Assembly (NCBI GenBank): GCA_013697635.1
Contig: JACCWM010000211.1
Span: forward strand, 1-64,000
Source: Lujinxingiaceae bacterium
GTDB taxonomy: Bacteria; Myxococcota_A; Bradymonadia; Bradymonadales; Bradymonadaceae
DNA: 64,000 nucleotides
Direction of reading: 5' to 3'
The notes below the pieces were generated by a model. That model was not told the DNA's origin and ran no database searches. It worked only from the letters and a program-made list of their open reading frames with translations. Shown in pieces: positions 52,824 to 60,241 of the stretch. The first letter of the stretch is position 1, and each line of letters begins with the position of its first letter. The position numbers and the translations under genes are program-made.

Positions 52824-53519
52824 TCAGTGGTTGGCCAGCGCGTCGTGTAGCTCGCGGGCGTGTTTCCATTGAAAGCGGCCACGAAGTAGCATGAAGACGC
52901 GATTGTAGCTTTGCGACCACTCTTGGAGCAGCTCGATGTCGTAGGCGTCGAACTCGCGGCGCAGGCCGGCGCGCTCGGTGAGCACGAAGCAAGCATCGCC
53001 GTGGGTCATGGCGATCGCGTCGCGCTCGGCCACGAATGGGTCGATCGCGTAGGCCATGCCCAGTGATTCGGCGAAGTCGCGCGTGTCCTCGACCGGCCAC
53101 ATGCCTTCGCTCTCCCAGATCACGACGGCCTTCTGGGTGTTGGCCAGCTCTTTGGCAAAAGCGCTGATCAGGGCGCGGTTGGAAGGGTTGGGAGAGAAGG
53201 ACAGGGGCGTCTTGAGATAGATCGCGCGCGCGGCAAGGGCGTGGGCGCTCTCGAGGGTGCTTTGCCAACCTTTGCGCACGCGATCGTCGAGCTCGCTCTT
53301 GTTGGCGTCGCCCAGGCGCACAAGGCCGCCGGAGACCGCCTCGTCGACGTGCAAGACGAAGGCAAAGCCTTTGGGCGAGTCGACGCGCCAGCGATTGAGC
53401 GTCTCGGTGGTCGGTCGCTTCTCGTAGCCTGAGAGTTTGAGTTCAACGGCGTTACAGAGCGCGAAGTAGCGACCCCAGCCCCGAGGGACGTGGTCGCAGC
53501 CATAATAGATTTTGGTCAT
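52824..53519 (-). CDS. DUF72 family protein
   Basis: This 231-residue protein begins TKIYYGCDHVPRGWGRYFALCNAVELKLSGYEKRPTTETLNRW, followed by SPKGFAFVLHVDEAV. This matches the DUF72/YecE barrel outline (N-terminal Gly-x-x-x-x-Trp, VE, then W...P.F.F). The middle reads AIYLKTPLSFSPNPSNRALI and the end YDIELLQEWSQSYNRVFMLLRGRFQ. The enzymatic role of DUF72 proteins is unknown. The upstream neighbour is the 1148-residue kinase-like protein, with 18 bases between. Confidence 0.65.
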   Translation of the reverse strand: MTKIYYGCDHVPRGWGRYFALCNAVELKLSGYEKRPTTETLNRWRVDSPKGFAFVLHVDEAVSGGLVRLGDANKSELDDRVRKGWQSTLESAHALAARAIYLKTPLSFSPNPSNRALISAFAKELANTQKAVVIWESEGMWPVEDTRDFAESLGMAYAIDPFVAERDAIAMTHGDACFVLTERAGLRREFDAYDIELLQEWSQSYNRVFMLLRGRFQWKHARELHDALANH

Positions 53520-53537
53520 TTTTGTGTGCCGGTCGTG

Positions 53538-56500
53538 TCAATCAAAGGGGAAAACGGCTTCTTGCCCATGGCGAGCCACCAACTCGTCGACGCGCGCGAG
53601 CATCTGGCGACGCTGGCTCCAGAACACGTCGAGTTTGACGCGTTCGACGCCACTGGGCTTGCCAAAGAGTACAGGGTTGGCGAGCTCGGGCGAGAGCGCG
53701 CGAATGGCGGCCACCGTACTGCGGCTGAAACGGCTCGTCCACTCGAAACGCCCGAGCACGCGGCGAGAGGCGCGCGGCTGGAAGGTGGCCCCGTTCTCGC
53801 TGGAGACGAACTGGCCCGAAGCAAAGGGGTTGGCCTGGCCGTAGCTGTCCGGGGTGTTGTTGAAGCGATTCCAATTGTTGGTCAGATAGTCGAACACCAG
53901 CAGGCTCGAGAGCTGGGCCGCCAGATGGCGCGTCGAAGCACCGCCTTGCTGGGCGAGTATCGCCTTGTGGGCGCTGCCATCACCGAAACTCGCCAGGCGC
54001 TCGTGGGCGGCCTCGAAGCTCTGGTCGAGCGCGCTGAAATCGGAGCCGGGCGCGAGCCACTCGCGCCACAAGGGCGTCATCTCGATCGGCCAGGGTGCGG
54101 CGTCTGTGACGGCCTCTTGAAGGGCGCCGTTGAGGAATTCGCCGGTCCAGACAAAGCTCGCTTCCAGGGGATGTTTGGTGCCACCCTGAGCGCCAATGAT
54201 TCGCTCCCAATCGGCGCGCGCGATCTTGGCTGGCTGTGTTTTGGGCACGCGAAACCCACAGGTGACGAGCTCGCAGAAGCGATACGCTGCCACCTCGGAG
54301 CGCAGCTCGTCTTCGAAGCCTTGTTGCACGGGCTTGAAGACAAAACGCTCGCCTCCAGCATGTGTGAGCATCACGTGGCCACGCTTGCCAAGCGCGATCA
54401 CTCGCGCGCTGGTGATGTTCATGGTGGCGACAGCATCGATGGGTACGTGGCTGTTGAGCTCGTCGTCGTCACGAATGCTTTGCTCGAAGAGCGCCACGAA
54501 GGCCTCTTTGGGCTCGAGGTTGGCCAGGCCAAAGGCGGCCACGGTGCGGGCTTGAGCCGGGCGCCTGGCAGCGAGCAGCAACCTGGCCGCCTCGGTGCTC
54601 GCCAGGTGATCGCGCGAGCCGGCTTTCCATGCGGCGAACAAATCGACCTCGACCTTCGGCTTGGGCGCCTGCTCGCCCACGACAAGCAGGTCGACCGGGG
54701 CGGCTTTGGCGTCGCCTCCATTTGCAACAATTGGCTCGGCGACCGCTACGGCCTCGAGCTTGAGCATAGGTTTGGCAGCGGGCTCGTCGGCCAGACCGAG
54801 CATCGATTGGCCGACGGGCGAAAGCGCGAACACGACGGCGCCAATGACTCCCAAAAGCGCCACGATGGCCACGGTGCGCCCTCGTTTGGGGGCTTCGACG
54901 TTCTGCTCGACCAGAGGCGGTGGCGCCGGGTCGAATTTCAGCGCGACCTTGGGCTTGGCCAAAGCCTTTGGCGCAGCCTCTTCTGGGGGTTTTGCTGGGG
55001 GGGGGGCCGGGGCTTTGACCAGCTTCGGCGCCACGAGCGGCGCGCTGGCGGCCACTTTGAGCGGGGCGGCCACTTTGAGCGGGGCGGCAGGCTCGTCGTC
55101 GAAGAGATCGTCACCCGGCAGCGCTTCGCCGTCGAATGCGTCCATGACGTCGTTCTCGGCCAGCACAGGCGGCACAGCCGACTTCGCGGCGGGCAGATTG
55201 TCCAGTGCAGGCACGCCCGGCTTAGCGGCGGGCAGATTGTCCAGTGCAGGCACGGCCGGCCTGGCGGGCAGATCATCGTGGTACTCCCGCGTATTGGTGA
55301 TGCGCGAGAGCAGATCGTGTGCCTCAACTGCCAGACGGCGGCGCAGCTCCTCGAAGACCGGGTGCTGGCTTACTGGCATCCAGTCGCCGTCGGCTTCGGC
55401 GATCTCTTCGGCGCCGAGCAGCACACCGCCCTTGATCAGTTGAATGAGGCCCTCCTTGTCGACCGGTTCATAGACGATGTTCTCGATGCGCAGGCGAAAG
55501 TCTCCGCGACCAAGGACTTGCTGAATCTCGGCCGTGGCCAGCCGAATAAAACCACTGCCTCGATTTTCTGAGGCCGCCAGCTCGATATCGAAGCCGTCCT
55601 TGCGTTGGCGAAGTCGCGCCAGCATCGACTGGGAGGTGTTCTTGCCCGATTTGTCCGACACGGTGGTCATCGGGCCGCGGTCTCTGCCGGATTGTGGGCC
55701 AGGCTTGGGCAGCGCGGCAAAGAGACCGTCATGGCTGGTCGAAGCAGCGGGCTCGCTGGCGTCGGGCGCGGCCAGCAGTATGTGCGGCTTAGGAATCGAC
55801 GTCTCGCTGGAGCGATCGACGATCGCTGCAAGCTCGTCATCGGAGATGTCGACGGCCAAGGACGAAGCCTGGGGTCGGGGATGCGCCGGCAGCGATATTT
55901 TTCGCTCACCAGGCACCGCAGCAGCCGGGGCGTCGTCCTCCGGGCGCGATTTTCGTTGTTCTTGTGCGCGCTTGAACAATCTGGCAAGCGACGACTCGCC
56001 GGGCACAGGAGCTTGGTCCACGGGCGCCGGCGACTCCGCGGTTTTGTCGTCAACCGGAGCGTCCACGCCGCCGGCATCGTAGGCCTCGCTGACGATGTCG
56101 CCGTTGGAAACCATTGCATCGTCCGATGATGGTTGATCCTTGAGCTTGGCGCGGGCCTTGGAAAGAATCATGGACTTTTGCGCCTTTTCCAGCGGCGCGC
56201 TGGGCGGCTGGTCCATGGACGATCCAGGCTTGGCTTTGGGTTTCTCGGAGGTCTCGCGCAGGTGAACGTCGCCTTTGGCAACCCCAGGGCCACTTTGCGT
56301 GCCGATCGCCGCCGTTGGGGCGAAGGGCGTGGGGAGGTGCCTGGTCGCCTCGCTGTCCGGGCGCTTTCGCTCGACGGTTGGATCGACAAGCCCGGTCACA
56401 GCAGGCGCGGTCTTACCCGCAAAATCTTCAGCCTCACTTGCCACGCTCTCTTCGTGCGCGATGAAGTCTTGCAGCAAGGACTCTTTGAGCGCTGCGGTCT

Positions 56501-56984
56501 TCTCATGAAGAGCCGAGCGATCGAAAGGATTGGCGAACGGCACTTTGGTCGTGTCGCCGTCGGGGTTCAGCCAACCCGCGGCGATGTCGGGCGAATGCCC
56601 GGGAAAGCCGTTGAAGGTCGATTTGACCGCGTCTTGTTGACTCGAGCCGCCCAGCGAGAGCTTCTCGAGGCGGCGAATCGCGTCCTCTGACGCGTCGTCG
56701 AGCACGACTGAGGGCAGCATCTTGGCTTTGGCCGTGTCCTCCCTGTGCCCAAAACTGTGCGCAAAGCCCGCCTCGGCGTGCCTGAAATCCACCTGCGCGT
56801 TGGCGTTGGCGCCGGATTTGTCCGCGGACCGACGATGGGCATCGATAGGAATATCGACAAAGCACTTAGGGCAAGGGACGGTGCCCTCGGGAAGCTGTCC
56901 GTTTTTTGGCTTGAGCCGAAAAAAAGAGCTACATCCTGGGCACTTTACTTCGACGGCTTCGGGAGCGTGTTCTCCCATGAACAT
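53538..56984 (-). CDS. membrane protein with zinc-ribbon, GYF-like domain and FAM20-like kinase domain (1148 aa)
   Basis: This large protein has a layered build. Residues about 13-45 form a zinc ribbon (VKCPGCSSFF...VPCPKCFVDIPI). Residues about 50-470 are a low-complexity, mostly disordered linker. Residues about 470-560 resemble a GYF-type module (LIQLIKGGVLLGAEEIAEADGDWMPVSQHP). Then come Pro/Ala repeats, one membrane span at about 700-725 (TVAIVALLGVIGAVVFALS), and from about 850 a domain similar to FAM20/PI4K-like kinases: ERFVFKPVQQGFEDELRSEV, LVFDYLTNNWNRFNN, SSENGATF. Where FAM20C has Asp in GNMDR and DNG, this protein has NNWNR and SENG. It may be an extracytoplasmic kinase or a pseudokinase. 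Start ATG 56984 (or 56978). Confidence 0.7.
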   Translation of the reverse strand: MFMGEHAPEAVEVKCPGCSSFFRLKPKNGQLPEGTVPCPKCFVDIPIDAHRRSADKSGANANAQVDFRHAEAGFAHSFGHREDTAKAKMLPSVVLDDASEDAIRRLEKLSLGGSSQQDAVKSTFNGFPGHSPDIAAGWLNPDGDTTKVPFANPFDRSALHEKTAALKESLLQDFIAHEESVASEAEDFAGKTAPAVTGLVDPTVERKRPDSEATRHLPTPFAPTAAIGTQSGPGVAKGDVHLRETSEKPKAKPGSSMDQPPSAPLEKAQKSMILSKARAKLKDQPSSDDAMVSNGDIVSEAYDAGGVDAPVDDKTAESPAPVDQAPVPGESSLARLFKRAQEQRKSRPEDDAPAAAVPGERKISLPAHPRPQASSLAVDISDDELAAIVDRSSETSIPKPHILLAAPDASEPAASTSHDGLFAALPKPGPQSGRDRGPMTTVSDKSGKNTSQSMLARLRQRKDGFDIELAASENRGSGFIRLATAEIQQVLGRGDFRLRIENIVYEPVDKEGLIQLIKGGVLLGAEEIAEADGDWMPVSQHPVFEELRRRLAVEAHDLLSRITNTREYHDDLPARPAVPALDNLPAAKPGVPALDNLPAAKSAVPPVLAENDVMDAFDGEALPGDDLFDDEPAAPLKVAAPLKVAASAPLVAPKLVKAPAPPPAKPPEEAAPKALAKPKVALKFDPAPPPLVEQNVEAPKRGRTVAIVALLGVIGAVVFALSPVGQSMLGLADEPAAKPMLKLEAVAVAEPIVANGGDAKAAPVDLLVVGEQAPKPKVEVDLFAAWKAGSRDHLASTEAARLLLAARRPAQARTVAAFGLANLEPKEAFVALFEQSIRDDDELNSHVPIDAVATMNITSARVIALGKRGHVMLTHAGGERFVFKPVQQGFEDELRSEVAAYRFCELVTCGFRVPKTQPAKIARADWERIIGAQGGTKHPLEASFVWTGEFLNGALQEAVTDAAPWPIEMTPLWREWLAPGSDFSALDQSFEAAHERLASFGDGSAHKAILAQQGGASTRHLAAQLSSLLVFDYLTNNWNRFNNTPDSYGQANPFASGQFVSSENGATFQPRASRRVLGRFEWTSRFSRSTVAAIRALSPELANPVLFGKPSGVERVKLDVFWSQRRQMLARVDELVARHGQEAVFPFD
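55186..55254 (-). repeat. 30-base tandem direct repeat within the kinase-like gene
   Basis: A 30-base unit is repeated at 55186-55215 and 55225-55254 (39-base period) and codes for VPALDNLPAA-type peptide repeats. A separate 18-base period repeat (GGCCACTTTGAGCGGG core) occurs at 55048-55084. These could vary in copy number. Confidence 0.75.
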
Positions 56985-57111: not shown

Positions 57112-59442
57112 CTACAGCCGGCCCCAGCGCCGGCGCAGCGACCACTCGACAGCGAGCAGACCCACGAGCACGGCGAAGATCAGGAAGGAATCCCACAGTT
57201 GGATGACGCGCCGGTGGTTGACCTGCACATAGCGCGGGGGATTGAAGGCCAGCGAGGCGTTGCTAAAGCTCGGCAATACGGCGTGGTGGCCCTCGGTTGC
57301 CGCAGCCATGGCGGCGAGCAGCTCGTTTCTGGGAATGATGTCGCGAAATTGATCGACGGCCGGCACCGAGAGGAAAATCTCCTCGTCGCTCAACGTTCCC
57401 GAGGCCGTCTTGGCCTCGACTTGCACCTCGTAGATGCCTGATTTGGCCACCGGATAATTCAGGGCAAAATGGCCGGCGTGATCGGTGGTGAACTCGATCG
57501 TCTCGACGAGCTCGGCGCCGCCGCCATCTTTGCCCTGTTGCTCGAGGCTGCGATAGAGGATGCGCACCGTGCCTTTGGCGTCGCGCGCTGGCGTATAGTC
57601 GGGCGCGAAGACCCGCACAGTCGCCTCGAGGCGCGTGCCCGGCGGGTAGATGTCCTCGGGCACCTCGAGGCGAACCAACTTGAGCTCGGGGTCGCGAATC
57701 AGCCAGCGCATGGCGTTGTTCCAAAACATCTGGTACTCGCGCGCCGTGCCACCCTGGCCGGCGTTGGAGAACGCCCATCGCCAGGTCGAGTCGACCGTCA
57801 GGGCCATGGCGCGGCCCTTGCCTTGCTCGGCGACGGTGATCACGGGCATCGCCTCGGCGCCGTTTCGAAGCCTGGGGTGGGTGGCGAGCACGGTGGCACC
57901 TTCGGTTGGCCCGAGCACGATGTTCGTGCCGCGCATCGCCGGCAGCTCACCCCAGATCTCCTGGTTGGCGCTCGGATCGAAGGCCAACTGCGTGATCGGA
58001 TGGCGGTGGCCGGCGGCGGTGAGTTTGGGGTTGAACGCGGCCGTGTCGATCAAGTTCTGGCGCGGGCCCGAGGCCGGCAGCTTGACCGGCAAGATCCCCT
58101 CGACCGGTGTTCTGGCGTAGCCGCCGCTGGCAAAGGAGAGGTCACCGCCGACCATGGCAAAACCGCCGCCTTCGTTGACGAAGTCCGCGATCGAGCTCAG
58201 GTACTGGCCCATCTGATATGGGCCGAAGTTGAAGTTTTGAAAGATCACCAGATCGAAGCTGCCCAGCTCGTCACGAAACAGCTCGTCGGTGGGAAAGGGG
58301 ATCAGGCTCATCTCGTGGGGCGCGACGACCTGCGGATTGGCGTTGGTGCGCAAAATGAAGAAGCTGACGAGATCGACGTTGGGGTTGCGTTTGAGCATCT
58401 GGCGCAGATAGCGCTGGTCCCAGCTCGGGCGTCCGACGACCTGGAGCACGCGCACCTTGTCGCGGATGACCTTGAGCACAAAGTGCTGCGTGTTGTTCTC
58501 GTAGAGTGCCTCGCCGGCGAACTCGGGCACCTGGACGGTGTAGATTTCTTTTCCGATGCGCTTGGGCACGAACTCGAATTTCACCATGTGGCGCGTCGTT
58601 CCGGGTCGAAGTTGCACGGTGCGCGTTTGCAGCAGCTCGCTGTCGCGGCGAAGCGAGACGGGAAAGCTCGTCTGATCCATGCCGATGGCCTGGATCTCGA
58701 CGTCGACGCTTATCGAGTTGTGAACGAAGGCAAAGTCGTCATGCAAGACGCGCGCAATTGCCACGTCGCGAAGGCCTTCGGCGCTTGCGGCGGCCAGCGT
58801 GTTGATCGGCGCGCCCAGGCGGCGCAAGCTCGCCAGCGTCACGTCGTCCAAAGGCTCGCCGCGGCGAACGCGCCGCCCGATCGCGCCGGTGTCGATGCCG
58901 TCACTGAGCACGACGACGCCGCCCAGATCGCTGCCCTCGAAATGCTCGCCGACGGCCTCGAGCGCGCCGGTCAGGTCGGCGCGATCGGCCCCCGGCTCCA
59001 GTCCGCTCAGTGCAGCGAGCGACGCGCTCTGCAGGCCGTCGCCATAGGAGAAGAGCGTAAAATGGTGGTCGTCGTTGTCGTTCTCGAGCAGGGGCTTGAG
59101 CTGGGCCAGCGCCTCGACCACGCGCCCATAGCGCGTATCGCCCTGATCGTTGACCTTGAGCGTCATCGAGCGGCTGGTGTCGACGAGCACCGCGACGTGG
59201 TTTTTGACCTTGGAGACGTGCTTCAAGTCGATCGCCGGCTCGAGCAGCAAGAGCACGGCCAGCCCGTAGACGGCCGTGCGAAGCCCGACCAATGTCCAGC
59301 GACGATAGGCCTTGAGTGTGCGCAGATCGTAGGCGCTCACGGCCAGCACGAGCAGACCCATGATGACGAGCAGAGCGATCCAGCGCGGGCTGAAGTCGCC
59401 CAGCCAGAGCAAATCGCGTGTGTTGTAGTCGTTAAAATTCAT
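57112..59442 (-). CDS. membrane protein with vWA and glutamine-amidotransferase-like domains
   Basis: This 776-residue protein has two N-terminal spans (IALLVIMGLLVLAVSAYDL and RTAVYGLAVLLLLEPAI), a vWA domain with MIDAS start VLVDTSRSM (about residue 85), and a central amidotransferase-like region (VRVLQVVGRPSWDQRYLRQ, VNEGGGFAMVGGDLSFASGGY) without an evident catalytic Cys. A Big/Ig-like C-part follows, then a final span (FLIFAVLVGLLAVEWSLRRRW). Such proteins lie in MoxR/DUF58 clusters in many bacteria; here only a DUF4159 gene sits beside it, ending 28 bases upstream. The function is unknown. Confidence 0.8.
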   Translation of the reverse strand: MNFNDYNTRDLLWLGDFSPRWIALLVIMGLLVLAVSAYDLRTLKAYRRWTLVGLRTAVYGLAVLLLLEPAIDLKHVSKVKNHVAVLVDTSRSMTLKVNDQGDTRYGRVVEALAQLKPLLENDNDDHHFTLFSYGDGLQSASLAALSGLEPGADRADLTGALEAVGEHFEGSDLGGVVVLSDGIDTGAIGRRVRRGEPLDDVTLASLRRLGAPINTLAAASAEGLRDVAIARVLHDDFAFVHNSISVDVEIQAIGMDQTSFPVSLRRDSELLQTRTVQLRPGTTRHMVKFEFVPKRIGKEIYTVQVPEFAGEALYENNTQHFVLKVIRDKVRVLQVVGRPSWDQRYLRQMLKRNPNVDLVSFFILRTNANPQVVAPHEMSLIPFPTDELFRDELGSFDLVIFQNFNFGPYQMGQYLSSIADFVNEGGGFAMVGGDLSFASGGYARTPVEGILPVKLPASGPRQNLIDTAAFNPKLTAAGHRHPITQLAFDPSANQEIWGELPAMRGTNIVLGPTEGATVLATHPRLRNGAEAMPVITVAEQGKGRAMALTVDSTWRWAFSNAGQGGTAREYQMFWNNAMRWLIRDPELKLVRLEVPEDIYPPGTRLEATVRVFAPDYTPARDAKGTVRILYRSLEQQGKDGGGAELVETIEFTTDHAGHFALNYPVAKSGIYEVQVEAKTASGTLSDEEIFLSVPAVDQFRDIIPRNELLAAMAAATEGHHAVLPSFSNASLAFNPPRYVQVNHRRVIQLWDSFLIFAVLVGLLAVEWSLRRRWGRL

Positions 59443-59470
59443 GCATGCCGTCGCAGGCTGGTCGAGCTTA

Positions 59471-60241
59471 TCAATCCACTCTCCAGCGGCGTCGCTTCAA
59501 GATAAAGGGGATGTGCACCTGGTCGGCCTTGTAGTTCACCGTCAGAGCGTACATCACCAGGTTGATCCCGAAGCGGTAGGCCAACTCGCGTTGGCGATCG
59601 CCGCCGGGCGTAACGCTGAACTCCCAGTTGCCAAAGTTGTCGCGCGCCAGCGCACCGAGCAGATCGTTGTGACTGACGACCGCCAGCAGCCGGTCCTCGT
59701 CGAAGATGCCCTGCACGGTCGGTGAGACGGCCAGCCGGCCCATGGGCTGCTCGATCAAGTAGAAGGACTTGAAGACGACGTGGTCGCGCGGCACCACCGC
59801 AAGCTTTCGCCTGGGAAAGATGCGCGCGATCTCGCGCTCGACACTTTTAGCGAAGGGCCCGTCGATGACGCCCTCGGCCGAGTCGATAAACAAGAAGCCG
59901 CCGGCCTGGGTGAAGGCGCGAAGTTGGTCGACGAGCGCCTGGGAAAAGGGCTCAAAGCCGCGGTCTCCGGCCAGCACCAAGAAAGGGGTGTCGAAGAGCT
60001 CGGCCGAGTTGGCGCTGACCGCCCGCGGGTCCGGGCGCACCTCGATGCTCGTGCGCTTTTCCACCTCGAGCAGGAGCCGGCGCAGGGCCGAGGGCCGAGG
60101 ATTCCAACCCGGCGTGCCATAGTTGAGCAAAGCGATCGCAAAGCGGTCCGACTCGCCCATGGCAAGCAGCGGGCCGGGGGCCGCAGCGAGCGCGCCCAGC
60201 GCCGCGCTGGCGAGCAGAAATTGGCGTCGATTCATGAGCAT
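59471..60241 (-). CDS. Tat-exported DUF4159 protein
   Basis: The 256-residue protein begins MLMNRRQFLLASAALGALAAAPG, a twin-arginine signal (RRQFLLA). The mature part matches DUF4159: FAIALLNYGTPGWNPRPSALRRLLLEVEKRTSIEV, FLVLAGDRGFEPFSQALVDQLRAFTQAGGFLFIDSAEG, IYQPMGRL-like YLIEQPMGRLAV, and FGINLVMYALTVNYKADQVHIPFI. It is a periplasmic protein acting with the vWA/amidotransferase-like neighbour 28 bases downstream. ATG 60241 and ATG 60235 are both possible. Confidence 0.85.
   Translation of the reverse strand: MLMNRRQFLLASAALGALAAAPGPLLAMGESDRFAIALLNYGTPGWNPRPSALRRLLLEVEKRTSIEVRPDPRAVSANSAELFDTPFLVLAGDRGFEPFSQALVDQLRAFTQAGGFLFIDSAEGVIDGPFAKSVEREIARIFPRRKLAVVPRDHVVFKSFYLIEQPMGRLAVSPTVQGIFDEDRLLAVVSHNDLLGALARDNFGNWEFSVTPGGDRQRELAYRFGINLVMYALTVNYKADQVHIPFILKRRRWRVD

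Follow-up and report, generated by a model that had tools for sequence, protein, structure and literature searches.

The window, the whole 64,000-nucleotide stretch of Bradymonadaceae DNA that was analyzed, carries a gene on its minus strand (53538..56984, 1148 aa) whose product is quite likely an extracytoplasmic pseudokinase related to the FAM20 kinases. The explanation that we favor overall, with some reserve, is a single-span membrane pseudokinase that acts by binding, and its likeliest single partner is an intact paralogue encoded in the same genome. Hereafter, this paralogue and its orthologues are called copy A, and the window gene and its orthologues are called copy B.

The reading frame was confirmed over its full length, and it is considered coding because the domain was matched in 35 of the 57 genomes searched (its own included) and because its neighbors are kept. 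Translation possibly begins at Met3 (56978), which is nearly invariant in a 20-row alignment. A 693-aa plus-strand frame that overlaps copy B (53490-55571) was taken as a shadow frame. Downstream, a gene for a DUF72 protein (52824..53519, minus strand) adjoins copy B, as it does in 18 of 20 other family genomes. Upstream lie minus-strand genes for a glutamine-amidotransferase-like/VWA membrane protein (57112..59442), found at 12 of 20 other family loci, and for a DUF4159 protein with a TAT signal (59471..60241).

Four parts can be distinguished in the protein, all encoded on the minus strand. An N-terminal MJ0042-like zinc ribbon (residues 15-41, CPGC ... CPKC; 56862..56942), recognized by its cysteine pattern and taken as cytoplasmic, is followed by a conserved GYF-like module (residues 475-562; 55299..55562), a membrane span (residues 704-722; 54819..54875) and, on the basis of structure and profile matches, a FAM20-type kinase-like domain modeled as residues 815-1148 (53541..54542). 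According to the domain alignment, this last part retains Lys884, the ATP lysine (54333..54335), within a VFKP segment (residues 882-885), as well as Glu897 (54294..54296), which is taken as the helix C ion-pair Glu. The catalytic Asp position is occupied by Asn1039 in DYLTNNWNRF (residues 1032-1041; 53862..53891), and the metal Asp position by Glu1063 in ENGATF (ENG = residues 1063-1065; 53781..53798). Apart from the four zinc-ribbon cysteines (residues 15, 18, 38 and 41), the window protein contains only Cys904 and Cys909 (54258..54275), a pair in the C-terminal domain that all 21 B copies have.

As modeled by AlphaFold (pLDDT 95.3), the C-terminal domain is of the FAM20 type. A FAM20-like fold had been proposed in a preliminary description of this DNA, and the predicted fold does match FAM20 structures best: they fill Foldseek ranks 1-25 without exception. 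VIA Z scores against the window domain are 17.3-18.0 for FAM20, 14.9-15.9 for PI4KII and 14.8-15.4 for CtkA, and are lower still for HipA/HipT (9.7-12.1) and CotH (11.7-11.9). Thus, HipA/HipT, PI4KII, CtkA and CotH share the wider fold but resemble the window domain less. The FAM20 kinase fold is also the closest solved structure for copy A. In two profile searches, the family sequence profile matched human FAM20C (5yh3) with E values of 2.3e-6 and 3.4e-7.

The window copy has no Pfam match at E <= 1 and none in NCBIfam at E <= 0.1, and therefore we call it FAM20-related rather than a FAM20 member. Given these null results, the fold assignment stands on the family profile and the predicted fold. 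At E <= 0.1, the Pfam model PF06702 (cut-off 26.8 bits) matched none of the 20 B rows searched (L062 lies outside this set) and 13 of 22 intact-type rows (16 copy A and 6 class-level rows), the best at 0.0062; across the window protein's own genome, it gave no match at E <= 0.001. The family profile also matched Fam20C-domain proteins of other Myxococcota. Two of these, L208 and L215, score above the PF06702 cut-off and carry the motifs D.L..N.DR and DNGAGF. Unlike the window protein, they are only 429 and 387 aa long with hydrophobic N termini. At E <= 0.01, no Pfam zinc ribbon was matched in either.

Catalytic residues were compared in a 75-row domain alignment (L103 was too short to be included) and in the alignments that HMMER made between FAM20C and the family profile. 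The preliminary description had named VFKP, DYLTNNWNR and ENG motifs, an Asp-to-Asn change and a metal Asp changed to Glu. All three motifs were located in the 1148-aa frame, and both comparisons confirm Asn at 1039 and Glu at 1063 in the window copy, which keeps Lys and Glu. A survey for paralogues in the same genome, which that description had also suggested, found exactly one, copy A, and its motifs are intact (NNHDRF and IDNGAGF, K/E/D/D). Lys, Glu and both Asp residues are kept in all 19 fully readable copy A rows, whereas 0 of 21 B copies keep all four; taken singly, Lys is kept in 13, Glu in 11, the catalytic Asp in 4 and the metal Asp in 3 of the 21. Nine of the 21 B copies share a Glu plus His pair, in eight cases with HNGDAF, and in other B copies the two Asp positions hold Gly, Ser, Arg, Val, Cys or Ala. 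Replacements for Lys among B copies include Ile, Thr, His, Leu, Tyr and Glu. One B copy, L036, may be active because only the helix-C Glu is missing while Lys and both Asp residues are present, as in three of the 27 class-level rows.

This domain is nonetheless strongly constrained. In three species, dN/dS is 0.061-0.095 for the B domain, 0.072-0.085 for the A domain and 0.206-0.225 for the rest of B. Residues have been lost in varied ways, yet dN/dS in the domain stays below 0.1, which points to a pseudokinase rather than to a decaying gene. The preliminary description had left the choice between a divergent kinase and a pseudokinase open; judged by these residues, a pseudokinase is the better reading of the window protein, and the divergent-kinase half of that proposal is less well supported.

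The domain is probably on the outer side of the bacterial membrane, as judged from sequence features. The only hydrophobic span in the window protein begins at residue 704, carries positive charges on its N-terminal side and parts the zinc ribbon from the kinase-like domain, in line with the earlier suggestion that the two ends lie on opposite sides. Lys and Arg residues are in excess on the N-terminal side of this span in 17 of 21 B copies, with four ties and none reversed. The bias is weaker in copy A (n = 19), where nine are in favor, seven are ties, one is reversed and two have no span found. Elsewhere in the phylum, an export-like hydrophobic N terminus precedes the domain in 27 of 36 relatives, a crude count without a control set that is based on stop-to-stop frames, with 10 of 42 loci picked by hand; among the 36 distinct frames, L167 is masked.

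For the zinc ribbon of the preliminary description, the four-cysteine pattern stands as two CxxC pairs, but no Pfam or NCBIfam model, including the MJ0042 models TIGR02098, PF13717 and PF13719, matched the window copy. Weak matches do occur in relatives: at E <= 0.1, PF13717 hits 12 of the 20 B rows, with 1.3e-4 as the lowest E value, and TIGR02098 falls below its cut-off in the paralogue and in one orthologue. The segment at residues 475-562, which 18 of the 20 aligned B rows contain (one of them in part), is weakly supported as GYF-like. A weak resemblance to the GYF_2 profile speaks for this assignment, with P values of 0.0003 (A and B), 0.0009 (B) and 0.01 (A); of 200 column shuffles, 0, 1 and 5, respectively, reached the observed score. 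For this comparison, a simple filter on motifs selected 14 of 22 A-type and 17 of 20 B rows, which were set against 27 of the 32 fetched GYF_2 loci. However, the window copy itself lacks a Pfam match to the module: at E <= 0.1, GYF_2 (PF14237) was found at four other places in the genome and not in the copy B gene. AgmX/GltJ likewise begins with a zinc ribbon, and GltJ has a GYF part and a span followed by a TonB-like C-terminal domain. ZitP also resembles the window protein in its N-terminal zinc ribbon, which is described there as cytoplasmic and ahead of the span (PMC5182065), but differs in having DUF3426 as its C-terminal domain.

Copies A and B occur together in 21 of 21 family genomes examined, with a layout common to both. 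The source bacterium is related to the predatory Bradymonadales. On shared contigs, A and B are separated by distances from about 137 kb (G003) to 890 kb (G010), and by more in G005. B frames reach at least 1100 aa in 15 of 21 cases and A frames in none; A frames span 366-1055 aa where the domain is whole, and some frames end at contig ends. Among the order-level genomes, four of five have a degenerate copy and no intact one, in assemblies that are 83-95% complete. Thus, B can exist without A, which counts against an obligatory pair. A search for a conserved neighborhood around copy A found partial shared blocks only. Ten frames from A loci were scanned, with a short-chain dehydrogenase, a uracil phosphoribosyltransferase, SpoIID and a sensor histidine kinase among the matches; three of the ten gave no match, and the scan suggested no partner.

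Membership in group B was assigned by the shared neighbors (18 of 20 others), and L042 and L056 were placed there as the altered second copies of their genomes. In a first tree, built from 73 rows from which the two aspartate motifs alone had been removed, the B rows did not group together as one clade. This tree included long, strongly altered rows, and 21 of its 70 inner branches are weak. A second tree used 50 of the 75 alignment rows with all four motif stretches dropped, leaving out the four order-level rows, two extra G004 copies, the fragments L094 and L102, and 17 of 27 class-level rows. In this tree, B forms one side of a branch with an SH-aLRT value of 97.8, and L042 and L056 both fall within it.

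FAM20A and FAM20C are the nearest PDB fold and sequence family to the window domain, and they too comprise a kinase and a catalytically altered paralogue within one genome. Their domains are extracytoplasmic, as that of the window protein would be. The window protein differs in being bacterial and in having its domain joined to a span, a zinc ribbon and a GYF-like module. It has two cysteines in this domain, compared to four conserved disulfides described for FAM20 (PMC5865150). The lost residues differ as well: FAM20A has lost the FAM20-specific Glu (PMC4421793), and the window copy has lost both aspartates. This metal-binding Glu is E306, located five residues to the N-terminal side of the ion-pair Glu E311 (PMC4421793). 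Asp892 of the window copy lies at an E306-like distance, at a position that is not conserved in the family and where the loop alignment is unsure.

Under the favored explanation, a single-span inner-membrane protein would keep its zinc ribbon and its GYF-like module on the cytoplasmic side and its FAM20-type domain outside, with long flexible linkers. The outer domain would no longer transfer phosphate and would work by binding. Copy A would be held or switched on by copy B, as FAM20C is activated by FAM20A (PMC5865150, PMC4421793), and the cytoplasmic part would tie the A-B complex to something within the cell. By analogy, copy B may thus be the partner of copy A, a pairing to which we give somewhat less than even weight. 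No ATP is expected beyond the inner membrane, so an active partner there is puzzling, and a system of the FAM20A/C kind, if true, would need a nucleotide source at that location.

A pseudokinase of this kind could also act without A, as a sensor or scaffold on the extracytoplasmic side, binding a ligand, a sugar or an envelope protein and relaying its state through the span to the zinc ribbon. We consider this unlikely, though it is the strongest competing account: degenerate copies without an intact one in four order-level genomes, the fixed DUF72 and GATase/VWA neighbors of B with A located elsewhere, and the mostly greater length of B all favor it, but A and B co-occur in every family genome and share a layout. 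Less probable still is a divergent active enzyme, in which Asn/Glu or Glu/His would support a changed reaction with another metal, another acceptor or AMPylation, a reaction reported for SelO (PMC10870513). The retained Lys884 and Glu897, the recurring Glu plus His pair and the purifying selection would suit such an enzyme; the replacements at the Asp and Lys positions vary so much among copies that no single chemistry accounts for them, and for this reason one altered reaction common to every B copy was dropped as the leading interpretation. If the topology were reversed, the domain would be part of an intracellular HipA/PI4K-like protein with ATP available, and the weak charge bias of copy A would be accommodated. 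The charge bias of B, the conserved cysteine pair, the zinc ribbon at the opposite end and the export-like N termini of relatives make this arrangement very improbable. Finally, the repeated loss of catalytic residues could mark a decaying duplicate without function, an idea with almost nothing to recommend it when the gene persists in all 21 family genomes with no stops inside the matched stretches; it was rejected on the dN/dS values of less than 0.1 obtained for three species.

The literature presents FAM20 kinases as enzymes of animals, and here a FAM20-related domain is found on a bacterial membrane protein. In a paper on FAM20 structure and evolution, the strings "bacteri" and "prokaryot" are absent from the main text (PMC5865150). 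Among the literature matches listed, from a scope outside which most subscription journals and preprints fall, no paper describes a bacterial FAM20-type pseudokinase/kinase pair. We tentatively suggest, as a doubtful proposal, that Bradymonadales carry out extracytoplasmic phosphorylation by a membrane-anchored kinase A that is switched on by a membrane-anchored pseudokinase B, that zinc ribbons link both proteins to the cytoplasm, and that this arrangement would have arisen independently of the vertebrate pair. If the domain is indeed outside, it becomes a testable question whether phosphorylation of envelope or secreted proteins takes place outside the cytoplasm in bacteria, and which nucleotide it would use. 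An altered copy is kept beside an intact one in every family genome examined, and the A/B pair offers a bacterial test case for why pseudokinases arise as partners of kinases.

The window gene at 53538-56984 (minus strand) encodes a 1148-aa product for which a Pfam-A search returned zero matches at E <= 1. From its N terminus, the protein carries a zinc ribbon (Cys 15, 18, 38, and 41), a long stretch that is disordered by appearance, a conserved module (residues 475-562), a second linker, a membrane span (residues 704-722), and a last domain modelled here as residues 815-1148. Its six cysteines comprise the four of the zinc ribbon and two, at positions 904 and 909, in the last domain. A 693-aa open frame on the opposite strand (window 53490-55571, plus) is interpreted as a shadow frame arising from GC-rich DNA.

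The FAM20-like fold proposed for the C-terminal domain in the preliminary description was borne out by structural comparison. An AlphaFold2 model built from a 54-row domain alignment (pLDDT 95.3, pTM 0.93) was compared with the PDB using Foldseek, and ranks 1-25 were all FAM20 structures (E 2.3e-8 to 2.3e-6). A second aligner gave Z scores of 17.3-18.0 for fish and human FAM20C, FAM20A, Hydra FAM20, and worm FAM20, with lower values for PI4KII (14.9-15.9), CtkA (14.8-15.4), HipA and HipT (9.7-12.1), and CotH (11.7-11.9); FAM20, PI4KII, HipA, and CotH are the known fold neighbours of the domain. At the sequence level, a profile of the 54-row alignment matched FAM20C (5yh3) at E 2.3e-6 and FAM20A (5wrr) at 0.026, and a profile with the intact paralogue as its lead sequence matched them at 3.4e-7 and 0.0031. 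The printed profile alignments place the Lys, D.L..N.DR, and DNG motifs onto their FAM20C counterparts. Because the window copy fails three tested features of FAM20, namely the Pfam cut-off, the catalytic residues, and the four disulfides, we class it as FAM20-related and, judged by its sequence, as a pseudokinase.

A survey of the same genome for a paralogue with intact motifs identified one. This genome has exactly two copies: the window gene (copy B) and copy A (G000:C19:34572-35582), which has the same order of parts, carries the motifs NNHDRF and IDNGAGF, and is 39% identical to copy B over the domain. Both copies occur in all 21 family genomes examined, including this one, with the copy A domain of G002 and G017 visible only as fragments at contig ends. 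One family genome (G004:C20) has two further degenerate copies, L093 and L095. In a 50-row tree computed without the motif columns, a single branch (SH-aLRT 97.8) separates the B rows from all others; B as one clade was not recovered in an earlier, wider tree.

In the 19 copy A rows readable throughout, the active-site quartet (ATP Lys, Glu of helix C, catalytic Asp, and metal Asp) is intact, and two copy A fragments agree with this pattern where readable. Class-level relatives keep the Lys and both Asp residues in 27/27 rows and the Glu in 24/27. No B row out of 21 retains the full set: the Lys is present in 13, the Glu in 11, the catalytic Asp in 4, and the metal Asp in 3. The window copy has the two replacements described previously, Asn for the catalytic Asp and Glu for the metal Asp; Glu and His occupy these places in nine B copies, and among other B copies Gly, Ser, Arg, Ala, Cys, or Val occur. 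Between the divergent kinase and the pseudokinase previously suggested, this pattern points to the latter, and we infer that copy B has lost catalysis. The Arg following the catalytic position is kept in every B row, as is the cysteine pair, which is also present in 19 of 20 readable A rows. Four order-level loci outside the family (L098, L104, L105, and L106) carry a strongly degenerate copy, and all four keep this pair. Among three related species, dN/dS (Nei-Gojobori) is 0.061-0.095 for the B domain, 0.072-0.085 for the A domain, and 0.206-0.225 for the rest of B. The altered B domain is about as strictly conserved as the intact A domain.

Residues 475-562 form the module previously described as GYF-like. 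The module, present in 18/20 B rows (one of them partial), has no match to Pfam GYF_2, but profile comparison does show a weak resemblance: B modules align over almost the full length of GYF_2 at P 0.0009 (1/200 column shuffles as good), A and B together reach P 0.0003 (0/200), and A alone P 0.01 (5/200). This presumably cytoplasmic segment may be a divergent GYF module.

FAM20-related proteins are spread across Myxococcota, with the window domain their distant relative, as judged from Pfam and family-profile searches, which coincide at several places (e.g., G071:C7, E 9.3e-33 by profile and 1.9e-11 by Pfam). Of the 282 genomes of the phylum, 21 encode proteins that pass the Pfam Fam20C cut-off (L208, L211-L216, L219-L223, and others), and the family profile matches 77 at E <= 1e-6. 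Several of the proteins over the cut-off have a lipoprotein- or signal-like N terminus, and this set looks like secreted or lipid-anchored bacterial FAM20-type kinases. Two lipoprotein-like proteins, L142:4798-7038 from a Polyangiaceae genome and L236:1869-3953 from a relative, fuse an FGE-sulfatase domain (Pfam E 7.4e-9 and 1.5e-6) to a FAM20-related domain (profile E 2.9e-110 and 2e-111).

A hydrophobic span precedes the domain in all 21 B rows, one of which (L062) has a second, weaker span within the domain. Lys and Arg residues on the N-terminal side of the span outnumber those on the C-terminal side in 17 B rows and match them in 4; the 19 A rows divide into 9 with this bias, 7 equal, 1 against, and 2 without a span. 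In relatives from other parts of the phylum, a strong hydrophobic stretch lies ahead of the domain in 27 of 36 distinct frames read at the N terminus (counted with no control set), and 9 of the 27 include a lipobox-like Cys. In ZitP, a zinc ribbon located in the cytoplasm precedes a span (PMC5182065), which offers a precedent, and the ribbon of copy B is likewise N-terminal of its span. Given these spans, the charge bias, the N termini of relatives, and this precedent, the FAM20-related domain probably lies outside. An active copy A there would face a genuine problem, since we are aware of no supply of nucleotide beyond the inner membrane.

A DUF72 gene adjoins B in 18 of the 20 other family genomes and a GATase/VWA gene is present at 12 of their 20 B loci, while neither was seen at any of 22 A loci, although several contigs stop too early to decide; loci L056, L100, and L101 lack the GATase/VWA gene despite some kilobases of further DNA. 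At order level, L098 and L104 have a DUF72 gene (~35% identical) 2.5-4.3 kb away and non-adjacent. Upstream of the B gene (window 57112-60241) are a DUF4159 protein with a TAT signal and a GATase/VWA membrane protein, as in many family genomes. Still further upstream in the window, the larger frames resemble a membrane protein and a helicase of the UvrD type; none of them was recognisable by eye as a MoxR ATPase.

FAM20A is missing one catalytic residue; it associates with FAM20C and increases the activity of the latter (PMC4421793, PMC5865150). The family genomes likewise carry one intact and one altered copy. No published description of such a bacterial FAM20-related protein was found among the literature matches listed, and the available text of a bacterial pseudokinase review (PMC12599244) has Fam20 in its references only. 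A predatory life is reported for Bradymonabacteria (PMC7460792).

The main rival explanation is that copy B works alone, as a ligand-binding sensor or scaffold. Four of five order-level genomes carry the degenerate copy without an intact one (the fifth, 65% complete, has neither), and A and B are far apart in genomes with both on one contig. Both observations count against an obligatory A/B pair. What speaks against a lone B is that the two copies occur together in every family genome examined, and it is from this co-occurrence that the A/B pair would share the FAM20A/FAM20C logic. By that logic, we infer that copy B would contact copy A.
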